Assembly: GCA_024998595.1 (NCBI GenBank) | Contig: JACOEK010000003.1 | Span: forward strand, 1-64,000 | From: Nitrospira sp. | GTDB taxonomy: Bacteria; Nitrospirota; Nitrospiria; Nitrospirales; Nitrospiraceae | DNA length: 64,000 nt | Direction: 5' to 3' | Shown here: piece by piece, positions 12,166 to 49,406 of the stretch | Layout of the letters: each line of letters begins with the position of its first letter | Position numbering within the stretch: the stretch's first letter is position 1 | Made by a program: the position numbers and the translations under genes | Notes under the pieces: generated by a model | Seen by the model: only the letters and a program-made list of their open reading frames with translations | What the model was told of the DNA's origin: nothing | Databases searched by the model: none

Positions 12166-14052
12166 ATGACTTCCTCTTCTGGTTCCACCGCAACCCCTGA
12201 TCTGTTGACCGCCCTGGCCAATAAAGCGACCAACCTCCGCATTGATAGCGTGAAGGCGACGAGCGAAGCCGGGAGCGGGCATCCTTCCAGCTGTTGCTCG
12301 GCTGCGGACATTGCCGCCGTGCTGTTTTTCTCTGTCATGCGGTATGACCCTAAGAACCCGAAGTTGCCGAATAGCGATCGATTTGTCCTCTCCAAGGGCC
12401 ACGCCGCGCCCCTGCTCTATGCGGCTTGGGCGGAAGCGGGCCTGTTCCCCAAATCGGAACTCTTGAAGCTGCGCACGCTCGGTTCCGATCTCGAGGGGCA
12501 CCCCACTCCCCGCCTCTCCTTCGTGGACATGGCGACCGGGTCGTTGGGACAGGGACTACCGGCAGGTGTGGGGCTCGCGTTCAATGCGAAATCAATCGAC
12601 AAGACCGACTATCGCACCTATGTCTTGATGGGCGACGGCGAATCAGTCGAAGGGTCGGTGTGGGAAGCGGCGGAAGTGGCCCGGCAGGCGAAGTTGGATA
12701 ATCTCTGCGCGATCGTGGACGTGAACCGTTTAGGGCAAAGCGATCCGACGATGCTGCAGCATGATATGGAGGCCTATCGCGCCCGTTGGAGCGGGTTCGG
12801 CTGGCATGCCATCGTGGTGGACGGTCACGATATCGGCGCCCTGGTCGCCGCGTTCGGCGAGGCGGCCAAGACCAAGGGGCAGCCCACGGTGTTGCTGGCG
12901 AAGACCTTCAAGGGGCGCGGCATTTCCTTTATGGAGAATCACCCGGACTGGCATGGAAAACCGCTGAAGAAGGGCGAGGAAACCCAAAAGGCACTCGACG
13001 AGTTGACTCGCCAATTGAAGCCAAGCTCGGTCCAGCCTCAGATTTCGTTACCGACCGCGGCCAAAACGGCTCCCGCGACCAAGGGAACGGTGGCTCCGGC
13101 TCCGTACAAGTTGGGGGATTCGGTGGCGACGCGGGAAGCATTCGGCGCTGCGCTGCTGGCGTTGGGTGAGGCGAACTCGCAGGTGGTGGCTCTCGACGCG
13201 GATGTGAAGAACTCCACCTATAGCGATAAGTTCGGCAAACGGTTTCCGGACCGGTTCCTCGAAAATTTCATCGCAGAACAAAATATGCTGGGTGCGGCGG
13301 CGGGCATTGCCGCCTGCGGTAAGATTCCGTTCGTCGCGACATTCGCCGCGTTTTTCACGCGAGCCTATGATTTCATTCGCATGGCGGCGATCAGTCAGTC
13401 GAACATTAAACTGGTGGGGACCCACGTCGGTGTCAGCATCGGCGAAGATGGCCCGTCGCAGATGGGGCTCGAAGATCTGGCCATGATGTCGACCCAGCCC
13501 GGCGTCACCGTGCTGTACCCGTCTGATGGCCTTTCGATGTACAAATTGATGGAGTCGGCCACGGCCCACAAGGGCATGGTCTATCTGCGCGCGGGTCGCC
13601 CCAAGACCCCGGTCATCTATGGCGCGGACGAAACGTTCAGGATCGGCGGTTCCAAGGTCCTTCGGCAGAGTGCGGCCGATCAGCTGACGATCGTCGCCGC
13701 TGGTGTCACCCTGTTCGAAGCGCTCAAGGCTCACGACCAGTTGAAAGCGGCCGGCATCGTCACCCGCGTTGTGGATTTGTACAGCATCGTTCCCGTTGAT
13801 CAAGCGACCTTGATCGACTGCGCACGCGCCACCGGCGGCCGGTTCCTGACGGTTGAGGACCATTATGCGCATGGCGGCATCGGCGACGCGGTGTTGAGCG
13901 CCTTGGCGTCCGAGGGCGTGACGGTTCGCAAGTTGGCCGTCCGGGACATTCCGCGCAGCGGAAAGCCGGATGAACTCGTGGATCATTTCGGAATTGGAGT
14001 ACGCTCGATTGTCGAAGCGGCCAAAGATATCGCCAAAGCAGCCCATCGCTGA
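12166..14052 (+). CDS. tkt: Transketolase
   Basis: 628-residue thiamine-diphosphate enzyme that transfers two-carbon units in the pentose phosphate pathway; in an autotroph it also serves carbon rearrangement. The N-terminal TPP domain has the GDG...N motif in MGDGESVEGSVWEAAEVA with VDVNRLGQ after it. The pyrimidine-binding domain has the catalytic-Glu region ENFIAEQNM, and the C-terminal domain is complete. A single full-length chain contrasts with split transketolases found in many other bacteria. The ATG at 12166 has GAAAGGA upstream; the frame is open further up but without family similarity. The Crp/Fnr gene overlaps its end. Confidence 0.96.
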   Translation: MTSSSGSTATPDLLTALANKATNLRIDSVKATSEAGSGHPSSCCSAADIAAVLFFSVMRYDPKNPKLPNSDRFVLSKGHAAPLLYAAWAEAGLFPKSELLKLRTLGSDLEGHPTPRLSFVDMATGSLGQGLPAGVGLAFNAKSIDKTDYRTYVLMGDGESVEGSVWEAAEVARQAKLDNLCAIVDVNRLGQSDPTMLQHDMEAYRARWSGFGWHAIVVDGHDIGALVAAFGEAAKTKGQPTVLLAKTFKGRGISFMENHPDWHGKPLKKGEETQKALDELTRQLKPSSVQPQISLPTAAKTAPATKGTVAPAPYKLGDSVATREAFGAALLALGEANSQVVALDADVKNSTYSDKFGKRFPDRFLENFIAEQNMLGAAAGIAACGKIPFVATFAAFFTRAYDFIRMAAISQSNIKLVGTHVGVSIGEDGPSQMGLEDLAMMSTQPGVTVLYPSDGLSMYKLMESATAHKGMVYLRAGRPKTPVIYGADETFRIGGSKVLRQSAADQLTIVAAGVTLFEALKAHDQLKAAGIVTRVVDLYSIVPVDQATLIDCARATGGRFLTVEDHYAHGGIGDAVLSALASEGVTVRKLAVRDIPRSGKPDELVDHFGIGVRSIVEAAKDIAKAAHR

Positions 14053-14749
14053 ACGGTCCGGTCCCGACGCTCCTGCCGGGTTGAATCAGATTCCCCTCCT
14101 TCAGATCCTCAGCGCCCAGGATCGGCAAAAGGTCCTGGGCGAAATGACAGAAACCCGCTACGGCAAGGGTGAGTACATCTTCCGCGAGGGCGACCCGACG
14201 GAATACTTCCATATCGTCAAGGAAGGATCGGTTAAGTGCGTCAAGTCGTCGCTCGACGGGAAGGAATGCACGCTCAAAGTCCTGATGCCGGGTGATTTGT
14301 TCTGTTGCGATGCCTCCGCCTTCGACGGCGCGTCTCACCCCGGCACCGCCCAGCCCATGGGCGATGTCAGTGTGCTCCGCATGAAAAAAGAGGCCTACTT
14401 CAAGATGCTGCGGGCGAATCCGGATGCCGCGATGGAAGTCATCCGGTATCTCGGAAACCGGCTCAACGAAGCCCAGGAAAAGGCCAAGGTCCTCGCACTG
14501 GACCGGGCCGATCAACGATTGGCCTCTCTCTTGGTGAATCTGGCCGAACGCAGCGGTATCAAGGACCCGAACGGGATTCGCGTGACCGTTCGGCTGACGC
14601 GTCAGGACATGGCGAACATGGTTGGCGTGACCACCGAAACCGCCATCCGGATCATGGCGCGCTTCAAGAAGGATCGTCTGGTGACCGGCACCGCCGCTCG
14701 TCTCGTCATTCGTGACCTCCCCAAGCTGAAACTGCTCGCTTCCACGTAA
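13970..14749 (+). CDS. Crp/Fnr-family transcriptional regulator
   Basis: 259 residues with the usual two domains: a cyclic-nucleotide-like beta-barrel (about residues 45-160) and a winged HTH (about 175-250). The recognition helix region TTETAIRIMARF keeps the Glu and Arg that contact TGA half-sites, but the Ser typical of FNR (ETxSR) is Ile. The N-terminal Cys cluster of FNR is absent; instead four Cys lie in the barrel (around KCVKS, KECTLK and FCCDAS), so the signal is not predictable. The ATG at 13970 has GCGGAAAG upstream but lies 83 bases inside tkt. It directly precedes nirK and its palindromic box, making nitrite/NO-related control of nirK likely. Confidence 0.88.
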   Translation: MNSWIISELEYARLSKRPKISPKQPIAERSGPDAPAGLNQIPLLQILSAQDRQKVLGEMTETRYGKGEYIFREGDPTEYFHIVKEGSVKCVKSSLDGKECTLKVLMPGDLFCCDASAFDGASHPGTAQPMGDVSVLRMKKEAYFKMLRANPDAAMEVIRYLGNRLNEAQEKAKVLALDRADQRLASLLVNLAERSGIKDPNGIRVTVRLTRQDMANMVGVTTETAIRIMARFKKDRLVTGTAARLVIRDLPKLKLLAST

Positions 14750-14777: not shown

Positions 14778-14801
14778 AAAACATGACTATTGTCATGTTT
14801 T
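14778..14801. promoter_or_regulatory. Palindromic Crp/Fnr-type operator upstream of nirK
   Basis: A perfect 10-base inverted repeat, arms AAAACATGAC and GTCATGTTTT, separated by TATT. The core TGAC-N4-GTCA is like boxes of DNR/NnrR-type members of the Crp/Fnr family. Its centre (14789.5) is 41.5 bp before the start site expected from the hexamer at 14819. The stem is too AT-rich for a strong terminator, and the position between the regulator and nirK favours an operator. Confidence 0.75.
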
Positions 14802-14818
14802 ATTGATGTTGCCTTCCG

Positions 14819-14824
14819 TATGGT
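14819..14824 (+). promoter_or_regulatory. Possible nirK -10 element
   Basis: TATGGT, a plausible -10 hexamer, would start transcription near 14831, about 90 bases before the nirK ATG. There is no good -35 sequence, as expected for a class II activator-dependent promoter using the upstream palindrome. Confidence 0.45.
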
Positions 14825-14920
14825 GCAGGCAGAGGCGCAGCATGTCGATCGTGACGAATGCTGATCCGGGGGCGGTGCGCTTCCGGTCGCCGGGTTCAAC
14901 GCAGGAATGGCGGAGGCAAT

Positions 14921-15892
14921 ATGTATAGACATGGAGAGACGGATCACCGAGGCAGAAGGGCATGTAAGGCGATGGTGTTCATGGGAGCGACGCTGGGACT
15001 GGTGGCAGGTATGGCCCTGTCCGCTCAAGCCAAGACCCACGAGATCAAAATGACCGCGGTTGAAACGGACATCGTCATCGACGGCGGCGGTGAAAAGTAT
15101 GCGGCCTGGACCTTCAACGGGCAGTTCCCCGGTCCGGTGGTGCGGGTCACCGAAGGCGATATCATCAACTTTACGTTGACGAACCCGGACACGAACAAGA
15201 ATCCCCATGCGATGGATTTCCATGCCGCGGAAGTCGATTTCTTGAAAAACTACCGGGCCGTCAACACCGGCGAGACGCACAGTTTCTCGTTCACGGCGAA
15301 GAAGCCGGGAGTGTTCTTCTACCATTGCGGAGCGCCGCCTATGATTCAACATGTCGCGCGCGGCATGTTCGGCGCGATCATCGTCGATCCAAAGAATGCC
15401 AAGGTGTGGCCGAAAGCGGATCGGGAATATGTGTTGGTGCAGTCGGAGTTTTTTAAGAATCCAAACGATGTCCAAGCCATGTTCGATCGTAAGTACGACG
15501 GCATGATGTTCAACGGCGGCATTTTCAAGTATCACCCGTTCGTGACCGGCGGGGGAAAACTCGATGCCAAGCCAGGGGAGCGTGTCCGTATATATTTCGT
15601 CAACGCCGGACCGAACGAGTTTTCCTCGTTCCACCCGATCGGGGAGATTTGGGACAACGTGTACGAGAGCGGCAATCCCGCCAACAATCTGAAGGGCGTG
15701 CAGACCTACGTCGTGGGGCCTGGCAGCGCGGCCACCTTTGACGTCGTGGTGGAATCTGCCGGGGCGTATCCACTCGTGACGCATTCGTTGACGGGTGCGT
15801 TGCGCGGCGCGATTGCGGTTTTGCTGGCGGGGCCGGATGCGAAACCGGCGCCGTTGATGCCGATGGTGCCGTGGGAATTGCCGGCGAAGTAA
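14921..15892 (+). CDS. nirK: Copper-containing nitrite reductase (NO-forming), NirK
   Basis: 323-residue periplasmic enzyme reducing nitrite to NO. A Sec-type leader ends near SAQA. Type 1 copper ligands are His96, Cys136, His144 and Met149; type 2 ligands are His101, His135 and His288 (THSLTG). The catalytic Asp99 (MDFH) and His238 (SSFHPIGEIWD) are present. The short CGAPPMIQH loop and FHPIGEIWD sequence resemble class II/AniA-like enzymes. No fused cytochrome domain follows. The ATG at 14921 has GGAGG upstream; a longer frame lacks similarity. The Crp/Fnr gene precedes it. NO formation is known for the family; in a nitrite oxidiser its physiological direction and role are open. Confidence 0.95.
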   Translation: MYRHGETDHRGRRACKAMVFMGATLGLVAGMALSAQAKTHEIKMTAVETDIVIDGGGEKYAAWTFNGQFPGPVVRVTEGDIINFTLTNPDTNKNPHAMDFHAAEVDFLKNYRAVNTGETHSFSFTAKKPGVFFYHCGAPPMIQHVARGMFGAIIVDPKNAKVWPKADREYVLVQSEFFKNPNDVQAMFDRKYDGMMFNGGIFKYHPFVTGGGKLDAKPGERVRIYFVNAGPNEFSSFHPIGEIWDNVYESGNPANNLKGVQTYVVGPGSAATFDVVVESAGAYPLVTHSLTGALRGAIAVLLAGPDAKPAPLMPMVPWELPAK

Positions 15893-18857: not shown

Positions 18858-19175
18858 TTAGGGATTCGGCGAGACGAACACGAGGACTTTCAATCGCTGC
18901 GAGGTGTGATTCTTTACGCCATGTTCCTCACCAGCCGCTGCCATCGTTCCCTGTCCTGATCCCAGCACGCGTTTTTCCGCGCCGACCTGAAACGTGCCTT
19001 CACCCTCCAGCACGATGTAGACCTTGTCCTGCTCGCCGTGAACGTGGCCCTTCTGTTCCTGTCCTGGTTCGAAACAATAGATGTCGCAAAAAAACCGCGA
19101 GGTTTCGAACAGGTTATTCTTCTTCATTTTCTCTTGGCTGAACTGCTGAAAATCCGAGAGGGCGATGACCTTCAT
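18858..19175 (-). CDS. Small cupin-domain protein
   Basis: 105 residues forming one cupin barrel: motif 1 with GHVHGEQDKVYIVLEGEG (residues 43-60) and motif 2 around AAAGEEHGVKN (79-89), giving His/His/Glu and a second His as possible metal ligands. No signal peptide, so probably cytosolic. Its ATG overlaps the stop of the HdrB-like gene (ATGA), so the two are coupled. Function unknown; it could protect or sense near an iron-sulfur or oxidative process. Confidence 0.82.
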   Translation of the reverse strand: MKVIALSDFQQFSQEKMKKNNLFETSRFFCDIYCFEPGQEQKGHVHGEQDKVYIVLEGEGTFQVGAEKRVLGSGQGTMAAAGEEHGVKNHTSQRLKVLVFVSPNP

Positions 19176-20095
19176 GTCGTGGGCTCCGCGGGTAAGGATG
19201 AATGTGTGGTGTCTGGTGTCTGCAAACGTGTCACGATACGATCGACTGAAATCAGATGGCGCGAGAGCCCCAAATCCTGCGCGGGAATGCCCATGGCGAG
19301 TCCGAGCAGCTGCGGGAGATGGAGAATAGGGAGATTCAGGTCGGTCTTCACAGCTCGCCCCGCGCGTTCCTGGTAGATATCCAGGCTCATGTGACAGAGC
19401 GGACAAGGCGTCACCATGAAATCTGCGCCGTGATCCCGCGCGTCTTTCATGTTCGTGCCGGCCATAGCCACCGCGATGGCCTCCTTCTCCAGGATTATGG
19501 GAAATCCGCAACATTTTGTCCGGCCTGCATAGGCGACCGGCTCTCCGCCGACGGCCCGGATGATTTTTTCCAACGAACTGGGATTTTCCGGATCATCGAA
19601 GCCCAGTTCCCACGATGGGCGCAGCATGTAGCAGCCGTAGAAAGGAGCGATACGAAAATCGCGAAACGGCGACCGGACCGTGTCGGTCACCCGGCTCAGC
19701 CCGAGATCGCGCACGGCGATCCACAGGAGATGTTTCACTTGCACGCCGCCGCCGTAGGAGATGCCGTCTTGCGCGAGAATGTTGTTTACCCGTTCAAGGG
19801 TTGCCGGTTCGCTTTTCAGACGGCGGTTGGCTGCGCTCATCACACCCTGACAGGTGCCGCAAATGGTCATCACGTCCAGCCCCATCCGCTCGGCCTGCGC
19901 GAAGGTGCGGGCGTTCAAGGCGAGGGCAAGGTCCGGGTCCGCCTCCCCGATGACCCCGGCTCCGCAGCAGGACGAGGCTGCGAGTTCAACCACCTCGATG
20001 CCCAGGCGGCCGACGATAGCCATGGTGGATTGGTAGAGTTCGGGTGTCGCGCCTTTGGCGGCGCAACCGGGATAGAGGGCAAATTTGAGCGGCAT
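19172..20095 (-). CDS. HdrB-like CCG-domain protein, candidate succinate/fumarate reductase anchor subunit
   Basis: 307 residues with two cysteine-rich CCG domains. The first has Cys11, Cys43-Cys44, Cys79 and Cys82; the second has YGCYMLRP, TKCCGFP and TPCPLCH. This is the architecture of heterodisulfide reductase subunit B and of the SdhE-type subunit of non-classical succinate:quinone reductases. An Fe-S subunit is encoded at 30394 in this window but not beside it, so pairing is plausible and unproven. No membrane helices. The ATG at 20095 begins MPLKFALYPGC like relatives; a longer frame is possible. Confidence 0.82.
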   Translation of the reverse strand: MPLKFALYPGCAAKGATPELYQSTMAIVGRLGIEVVELAASSCCGAGVIGEADPDLALALNARTFAQAERMGLDVMTICGTCQGVMSAANRRLKSEPATLERVNNILAQDGISYGGGVQVKHLLWIAVRDLGLSRVTDTVRSPFRDFRIAPFYGCYMLRPSWELGFDDPENPSSLEKIIRAVGGEPVAYAGRTKCCGFPIILEKEAIAVAMAGTNMKDARDHGADFMVTPCPLCHMSLDIYQERAGRAVKTDLNLPILHLPQLLGLAMGIPAQDLGLSRHLISVDRIVTRLQTPDTTHSSLPAEPTT

Positions 20096-47555: not shown

Positions 47556-49406
47556 TCAACTTCCCGCCGGGTATAACCCGACCGCTTGATACCATCTTGT
47601 CAGCATGGCGACACGGGCTGCCTGTTCCGTGGGTAACTGCAAGGGACGGCCGCGCCCGTCCAGCATCAAGCCTACGACGCCACCTTTCGCGGTTCGCGCG
47701 AAGGATTGTCCGGGGCCTTCGCCAAGATCCACCTGTTTGGCCGGTTGTAGCGTGAGCGTGGCCTGTTGGTCGCGGGTCAGGCTGAACAACTTGAGATCCC
47801 CGAACGCCAGCGTGCCCTTTTCGATGCGACCATCCGGCAGCGCGACTTCGTAGTCGGCGCAACGCTCCCCGTCTTTGCCTTGCCCGATGGGCGCAATGCA
47901 GGTGCCGAGGTACACCATGCAGTCGCGGACGAAGACATCGGTGGCCGCCTGTTCGTTGACGGTGGAAAGCACGCCGAGATGCGGCATCATGAAAATGCTG
48001 TCGACCGAGAGCGTGGTGACACCGAGCGGTTCGTAGGCATCGACCATCATCAACATTGATTGAATGCGGCGCGGCGCGTGCGACAGAATGCCGCCGCTGC
48101 CGACGATCAAATCCAACTTCAATAAATCGATCAGGGTTTTGCCGGAAGTCCGCTGCTCGAACACATCCGAGATGGTGCGTTCCTGCTGCACACCCTTGAG
48201 CCCGGTCGCCAGAGACTTGTGATGGATCAACGCCAGCCGCAGGGCTTCGCGTGCGATGGCATGTTCGATCTGCAGCTCATCGAGCGACTGCGGGATGGTC
48301 GTAGGGCGCACCATTTTGTTCTTGATACGATTTCTGAGGGTCTGTTCGTCGATGGTGAAGGGCACCCAGCGCATGATGTTGTCCAGGCCCGCTTCCGCCA
48401 GCACGTTCGAGATGCTGTAGGACATGCCGAGGTTGGCGCTGACCGTGCGGTTGAACAGGCCGTTGAACACCGAAAACACGTCGGTCGTGGCACCGCCGAT
48501 ATCAACGCCGATCAGGTTGATCCCCTCGCGTTTGGCGATGGTCTCCATGATGACGCCGACTGCCGCCGGCGTTGGCATGATGGGCGCGCCGGCCATCTCG
48601 ATGAGTTTCTTGTAGCCGGGCGCCTGCTGCATGACGTGTTCGAGAAACAGGTCATGGATTTTGTTGCGGGCTGGCGTGAGGTTTTCGCGCTCGAGGACCG
48701 GCCGGATATTGTCGGCGAAATCCAATGCGGTCTTCTCGCCTAAAATGGTTTTAATTTGCGGCCGAGCGTCTGTGTTGCCTGCATACACGAGCGGTAGCCG
48801 GTAGGTGCTGCCGAAACGCGGTCGCGGATCAGCTGCGGCGATGTACTCGGCCATTTCCACCACATGGGTCACGGCGCCGCCGTCGGTGCCACCGGACATG
48901 AGGATCATGTCCGGGCGCATGGTGCGGATCCGTTCGATCTTTTCGTAGGGCAACCGCCCGTCATTCGAGGCAAGCACGTCGATGACGATAGCCCCAGCGC
49001 CAAGTGCGGCGCGTTGGGCACTTTCCCCCGTCATGTTTTGCACCACGCCTGTGACCATCATCTGCAATCCGCCGCCGGCGCTGCTGGTGGACACGTAAAT
49101 GTCCACGCCTCGCTTCGGGTCGCCCTGCGTCGCGTGATTGGGAGTGATGATGCGGTCGCCGTCCAGAATCGTTCGGCCGGAGAGTTCTTCGATTTCAGCA
49201 ATGGCATTGAGCACGCCCCGGGTCACATCTTCGAACGGGGCCTCCACGGTGGTCGGAGCTTCGCCGCGGTAGGTCTGGCGGTATTCGTTGCCGACCTTTT
49301 CGATCAGGATGGCTTTGGTGGTCGTGCTGCCGCAGTCGGTCGCGACGATGACGTTCAACGGCTGCGCAGGGTTCGCTATGGCGGGAGACTGATGCGCTGC
49401 CGTCAT
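47556..49406 (-). CDS. GlmL/MutL-type ASKHA ATPase without an adjacent mutase
   Basis: 616 residues of the glutamate-mutase accessory (GlmL/MutL) family of actin/hexokinase-fold ATPases. Phosphate loops are TDCGSTTTKAIL (24-35 region) and DIGGATTDVFSVF; LMSGGTDGGAVTHVVEMAEYI and GSGGILSHA complete the pattern. In known systems such proteins reactivate or chaperone B12-dependent glutamate mutase (GlmES). No mutase genes are in the window. It overlaps the upstream 124-residue gene by 4 bases (ATGA), and its other neighbours are membrane proteins. A new role in that membrane assembly is an inference. Confidence 0.85.
   Translation of the reverse strand: MTAAHQSPAIANPAQPLNVIVATDCGSTTTKAILIEKVGNEYRQTYRGEAPTTVEAPFEDVTRGVLNAIAEIEELSGRTILDGDRIITPNHATQGDPKRGVDIYVSTSSAGGGLQMMVTGVVQNMTGESAQRAALGAGAIVIDVLASNDGRLPYEKIERIRTMRPDMILMSGGTDGGAVTHVVEMAEYIAAADPRPRFGSTYRLPLVYAGNTDARPQIKTILGEKTALDFADNIRPVLERENLTPARNKIHDLFLEHVMQQAPGYKKLIEMAGAPIMPTPAAVGVIMETIAKREGINLIGVDIGGATTDVFSVFNGLFNRTVSANLGMSYSISNVLAEAGLDNIMRWVPFTIDEQTLRNRIKNKMVRPTTIPQSLDELQIEHAIAREALRLALIHHKSLATGLKGVQQERTISDVFEQRTSGKTLIDLLKLDLIVGSGGILSHAPRRIQSMLMMVDAYEPLGVTTLSVDSIFMMPHLGVLSTVNEQAATDVFVRDCMVYLGTCIAPIGQGKDGERCADYEVALPDGRIEKGTLAFGDLKLFSLTRDQQATLTLQPAKQVDLGEGPGQSFARTAKGGVVGLMLDGRGRPLQLPTEQAARVAMLTRWYQAVGLYPAGS

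Follow-up and report, generated by a model that had tools for sequence, protein, structure and literature searches.

The perfect palindrome that precedes nirK in the genome of this nitrite-oxidising Nitrospira, which stands close to Ca. N. defluvii, is very probably the operator of a dedicated Crp/Fnr activator encoded by the adjacent gene, which would act at a class II promoter of nirK and, in trans, also at the promoter of a second nirK. What carries this reading was computed directly: the site, its fixed spacing to a -10 hexamer, its restriction to nirK promoters, its tendency to occur together with the regulator, and the covariation of recognition helix and operator. The features discussed here (Table 1) lie in a window of 64,000 nucleotides, the whole stretch of DNA that was analysed; its nirK is called nirK1 and the second one nirK2.

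Table 1. Positions of the regulator gene, the nirK1 promoter elements and nirK1 in the window
Feature	Position	Strand	Basis
Crp/Fnr-family regulator gene	13970..14749	+	Pfam PF00027, PF13545; orthologue alignment; CRP/FNR position mapping
Candidate operator palindrome AAAACATGAC-TATT-GTCATGTTTT (24-mer AAAACATGACTATTGTCATGTTTT)	14778..14801	.	kept in 27/27 same-genus loci and nirK2 promoters
-10 hexamer TATGGT	14819..14824	+	TAnnnT 18/19 nt past the 22-mer in 71/71 promoters
Predicted transcription start	14831	+	inferred from the -10
Ribosome-binding site GGAGG	14912..14916	+	sequence; before the nirK ATG at 14921
nirK, putative Cu nitrite reductase, 323 aa	14921..15892	+	TIGR02376, Cu-oxidase domains, ligand motifs

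The first-pass annotation of the window had placed the centre of the palindrome 41.5 bp ahead of the start that TATGGT implies, and this geometry is confirmed. Two perfect 10-base arms flank a four-base spacer, with the core ATGAC-N4-GTCAT at 14783-14796 and the centre between 14789 and 14790; if TATGGT occupies -12 to -7, position 14831 becomes +1 and the centre of the palindrome falls at -41.5. Its presence before nirK is not due to chance: about 0.3 perfect palindromes with 10-bp arms and an N4 spacer are expected per 64 kb and thus about 0.0008 in the 171-nt region between the regulator gene and nirK, and no other palindrome of this kind occurs in the window. When spacers of 0-10 are admitted, the window contains a single further palindrome with perfect 10-bp arms, CCGGACATGA-GGA-TCATGTCCGG at 48892-48914. 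By itself TATGGT is a weak hexamer (4/6), but each of the 71 sites examined is followed by a TAnnnT at a constant distance, and this makes it convincing. No -35 box precedes nirK: there are 1-2/6 matches at 16-18 bp spacing, and no sigma-70 pair was found. Relative to the predicted start, the promoter therefore shows the attributes of class II, namely a dyad near -41.5, a -10 hexamer and a poor or missing -35 element.

The gene downstream encodes a product with an N-terminal signal-like region, Cu-oxidase domains and copper-ligand motifs that were read by eye (HAMDFH, YHCGAPPMIQHVARGM, SFHPIG and VTHSLTGA). Its match to TIGR02376 (E=1e-58, 199 bits) remains under the curated cut-off of 296, and passages in papers on published Nitrospira genomes name this type of protein NirK (PMC6606698, PMC8115632, PMC5596200). 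The sequence GGAGGCA upstream of the gene is kept in many relatives.

Conservation of the palindrome upstream of homologous nirK genes had been named as a check in the first-pass annotation, and the palindrome is kept: nirK is present in 28/29 genomes of the genus, and all 27 same-genus loci with readable upstream DNA carry the palindrome before it. Its changes within the genus are mostly of the C/T-G/A type and preserve the dyad (AAAC/GTTT to AAAT/ATTT), and TA[TA][AG]GT follows 18 or 19 nt past the 22-mer in the same 27 promoters. When the family and the nirK2 promoters were added, the set grew to 71 sites (one or two of them from duplicate records), in which TAnnnT stands at an offset of 18 in 46 (centre -41.5) and of 19 in 25 (centre -42.5). 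The stricter TA[TA]nnT occurs at these two offsets in 69 of the 71 sites, compared with at most 6 at any other offset. Since the hexamers themselves differ by clade (TATGGT in 29, TATCCT in 27, others in the remainder), it is the position that is conserved and not merely the neighbouring sequence. Within the operator A-T-G-A...T-C-A-T is nearly invariant over the 71 sites, and the four central bases are free.

This pattern of constraint also bears on the possibility that the palindrome is an intrinsic terminator (hairpin and T-rich tail) of the upstream transketolase-regulator unit, which we regard as very improbable. The palindrome lies about 30 nt past the regulator's stop codon, and its hairpin, at -11.6 kcal/mol (z -3.8), is called terminator-like; however, a terminator needs only pairing, whereas here the TGA/TCA bases are nearly invariant and the spacing to the -10 is fixed. 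The nirK1 hairpin comprises only 3 G-C pairs, and two nirK2 copies that were tested fold no better than shuffled sequences and lack a T tract, yet keep the core, so that a stable G+C-rich stem with a U tract is not present at all copies. A double role as operator and terminator is possible at nirK1.

A site of this kind also stands before the second gene. The nirK2 product is 61% identical to that of nirK1, and its gene lies on a different contig of this genome; its promoter contains a site with two mismatches to the extended motif and TATTCT at 19 nt. The 11 readable nirK2 promoters (this genome and ten genus-mates) score 13-16 of 18 and show the same arrangement, some in a more degenerate form. 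The region fetched around nirK2 has no neighbouring Crp/Fnr gene, so control there would be exerted in trans. Scanning the genome for the palindrome, as the first-pass annotation had advised, returned matches of regulatory type only before nirK1 and nirK2: a whole-genome search allowing up to three mismatches gave these two convincing sites. The core TGAC-N4-GTCA alone is uninformative (73 hits vs 28 in a reversed control). A wider regulon found no support: ATGAY-N4-RTCAT has 22 hits in the genome, and among the 15 that were fetched a -10 hexamer is found only at nirK2 and nearly all matches are inside ORFs. The regulon thus appears to be dedicated, with one or two sites per genome. Autoregulation, which had been suggested as well, is unsupported because the regulator gene precedes the operator, and the regulatory-type sites of the genome stand only before the two nirK genes.

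Site and regulator occur together across the family. The extended site was found in 80/175 family genomes, usually once or twice in each (reversed control: 4), and orthologues of the adjacent regulator in 86/175, a count that leaves out two homologues of 43% identity. Both are present in 77 genomes and neither in 86; nine have only the regulator and three only the site. The Fisher value of 3e-35 overstates independence, as the genomes are related, and consequently losses and exceptions provide the better evidence. Of the regulator-only genomes, 5/9 do have a site that is degenerate but has kept its -10, and one case lies at a contig end. Three genomes (G136:C88, G153:C171 and G155:C19) possess a regulator gene with in-frame stops and gave no nirK hit, and in a fourth (G144:C293) the site and an adjoining regulator fragment were found and no nirK, which suggests that the regulator decays after nirK is lost. 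In two of the site-only genomes (G066 and G147) the hit is apparently a partial match due to chance, and the site is absent from comammox-type nirK genes that have no regulator.

In the intact cases examined, the regulator adjoins nirK or a replacement of nirK. At two loci, L197 (G070:C5:11500-16300) and L198 (G033:C146:2500-6500), regulator, operator and -10 precede a small c-type cytochrome of the CSNCHG type instead of nirK. The first of these genomes also has a cupredoxin/YVTN-propeller protein and retains the transketolase at its flank, as well as a cupin that resembles one near 18858-19514 of the window; this looks like a replacement of nirK within the module. The second contains another perfect operator (G033:C146:3606-3627), which lies about 1 kb before a duplicated regulator gene and has no -10 at the customary 18/19.

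These distributions also weigh on the idea that another Crp/Fnr protein binds the palindrome and that the adjacent gene is incidental. The genome encodes six proteins with a Crp-type HTH, and one of them, at G000:C9:288581-289288 on the minus strand (L133), is rich in cysteines, including N-terminal ones (CDTC...C), and has a recognition helix, VETAIR, that is almost the same as that of the adjacent regulator. Nevertheless, we consider this idea improbable: an orthologue of the C9 protein is missing from 46/80 site-bearing genomes (34 have both), whereas only 3 lack the adjacent regulator, and it is the adjacent regulator that sits by nirK or its replacement when intact and decays where nirK is missing. 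Cross-talk of the C9 protein at ATGAC sites is possible.

The adjacent regulator is a member of the Crp/Fnr superfamily. Matches to PF00027 (1e-18) and PF13545 (6e-18) reveal a cNMP-binding fold and a Crp-type winged HTH, and the AlphaFold model (pLDDT 86) has GlxR/CRP as its best PDB matches (TM ~0.9). The longest ORF comprises 259 aa with an uncertain true start, the conserved part beginning at about 14072. This ORF shares 83 bp (window 13970-14052) with the 3' end of the transketolase gene; the two genes may be co-transcribed, and if so, the supply of the regulator would be tied to a gene of carbon metabolism. Its recognition helix reads TTETAIR, in which E189 and R193 (numbering of the conserved part) are the counterparts of FNR E209/R213 and CRP E181/R185, and Ile192 takes the position of FNR Ser212.

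Helix and operator change together among the homologues. In orthologues with I or T at the FNR S212 position the half-site almost always begins with A. Two more distant groups have V there (and Glu at 188), and 12/12 of their half-sites begin with T; their boxes, TTGAT/TTGAC, are thereby FNR-like, and a -10-like hexamer again stands at 18/19. This covariation, which rests on few evolutionary changes and in which two helix positions change together, ties the adjacent regulator to this DNA. The order has a second family, whose regulators (44-59% identity) stand before another type of NirK (35-40% identical), and in 8/9 loci a palindrome is accompanied by a -10-like hexamer 17-19 nt away; the pairing has accordingly outlived a change of enzyme type. 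At two loci of the comammox UW-LDO-01 type (L205 in G058 and L206 in G061) a 43% homologue is encoded about 600 nt upstream of nirK. One of the two is from UW-LDO-01 itself. These loci have the site TTGAC-N4-ATCAA 410-423 nt past the regulator, and TATACC follows it at 19 nt, which is class II spacing; both also carry a separate, unexplained 23-bp palindrome, TTAGATACATG-n-CATGTATCTAA. The site calls at L217 and L218 proved spurious, and at L217 (G280) the gene pair is present without a recognisable site.

The direct class II control of nirK by its neighbour that the first-pass annotation had suggested is strongly supported by conservation, co-occurrence, the nirK2 target and helix/operator covariation, all of them comparisons of sequences. 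We infer binding, the start site and activation rather than repression. A dimer of the regulator would bind ATGAC-N4-GTCAT centred at -41.5, stand in for the missing -35 and recruit RNA polymerase to the TATGGT -10, so that nirK would be transcribed when the regulator is active; the same protein would act in trans on the second, distant nirK. The operator covers the -35 region and Crp/Fnr proteins are capable of repression, and the same regulator could thus be a repressor that blocks the polymerase there. This is unlikely, though less so than the other two alternatives: there is no -35 box to repress, the spacing of operator and -10 is tightly conserved, and a centre at -41.5 +/- 4 is the position found in 19/23 FNR-activated promoters of E. 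coli (PMC3688515). Against activation by a pronounced switch stands a report that the nirK genes of N. moscoviensis are transcribed constitutively under nitrite-oxidising conditions (PMC6606698); the effect of the regulator may accordingly be modest, or its normal state may be on.

The proposed arrangement resembles the E. coli class II promoters activated by FNR (nirBDC, nrfA, narGHJI), which have a dimer site at about -41.5, an E-T-x-x-R helix in the regulator and targets in nitrogen-oxide respiration. However, the first operator base in this genome is A and not T (ATGAC-N4-GTCAT compared with TTGAT-N4-ATCAA; an FNR-like box is found only with distant homologues of the order), the N-terminal cluster cysteines are missing (FNR ligands: N-terminal Cys20/23/29 and Cys122), and there are one or two targets instead of a global regulon. 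The CRP operator, TGTGA-N6-TCACA, differs as well. NnrR and DNR are likewise Crp/Fnr activators of genes of the nirK/nirS type, but their sensor-pocket residues differ from those of the regulator described here; DNR senses NO by means of haem. Nor do their operators match the one in this genome (TTGCG-N4-CGCAA for NnrR and TTGAT-N4-ATCAA for DNR; PMC1274295). The operator of HcpR from delta-proteobacteria and cyanobacteria, TTGAC-N4-GTCAA, deviates in the outer base only. HcpR also has a small dedicated regulon (one or two sites in cyanobacteria), but its targets are hcp/frdX/norB and not nirK, and the likeness is one of operator and regulon description.

The putative sensor pocket has a signature of its own. 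C56, C78, C79, H89 and Y109 (conserved-part numbering) are invariant in 50 aligned orthologues, and the Cys/His set (C90, C112, C113 and H123 in the window protein) aligns with V49, I70, G71 and R82 of CRP, in its cAMP pocket. The cAMP contacts Arg82/Ser83 of CRP are replaced by His/Pro, which makes cAMP sensing unlikely, and no Cys precedes C90 in the window protein, so that FNR-type N-terminal cluster cysteines are absent. With regard to the signal, for which the first-pass annotation had named nitrite, NO or redox as candidates, the sequence speaks only against the classical ligand sets for an FNR cluster and for cAMP. The NirK-linked regulators of the second family share the Cys set, which is absent from five phylum-level homologues unlinked to nirK. 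A signal would act at this former cAMP pocket, where the Cys/His set may bind a metal, cluster or haem or serve as a thiol switch. Tentatively, and with some doubt on our part, the regulator might found a distinct class of Crp/Fnr sensors dedicated to NirK in Nitrospirales, in which the pocket reports NO, nitrite, copper or redox and switches nirK on.

In 2017 an Fnr gene was mentioned upstream of nirK in Nitrospira UW-LDO-01, N. moscoviensis, N. defluvii and OLB3, and control of nirK was suggested (PMC5596200); this is very likely the gene pair studied here. The relevant passages of that paper treat the upstream gene as an oxygen-type Fnr and give no operator, geometry, second target or sensor residues. 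In 2021 NnrR was assigned to an N. defluvii-like genome by use of a proteobacterial motif (PMC8510549). A description of the operator, the geometry, the nirK2 target, the restricted regulon, the co-loss or the pocket signature was not found in open-licence papers. The promoter is of a known type; a variation on it is the dedicated regulator, which has an operator and a pocket signature of its own.

NirK is kept by almost all of these Nitrospira, and its role in the nitrite-oxidising members has been called unknown (PMC8115632, PMC6606698). A dedicated activator that is retained together with nirK and decays where nirK is missing suggests that NirK is made in response to one particular signal. 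What the regulator senses would show the purpose of the enzyme, and it bears on NO release in soils and wastewater plants, where these bacteria are the dominant nitrite oxidisers. The conserved operator provides a concrete handle on the question of why these bacteria keep NirK.
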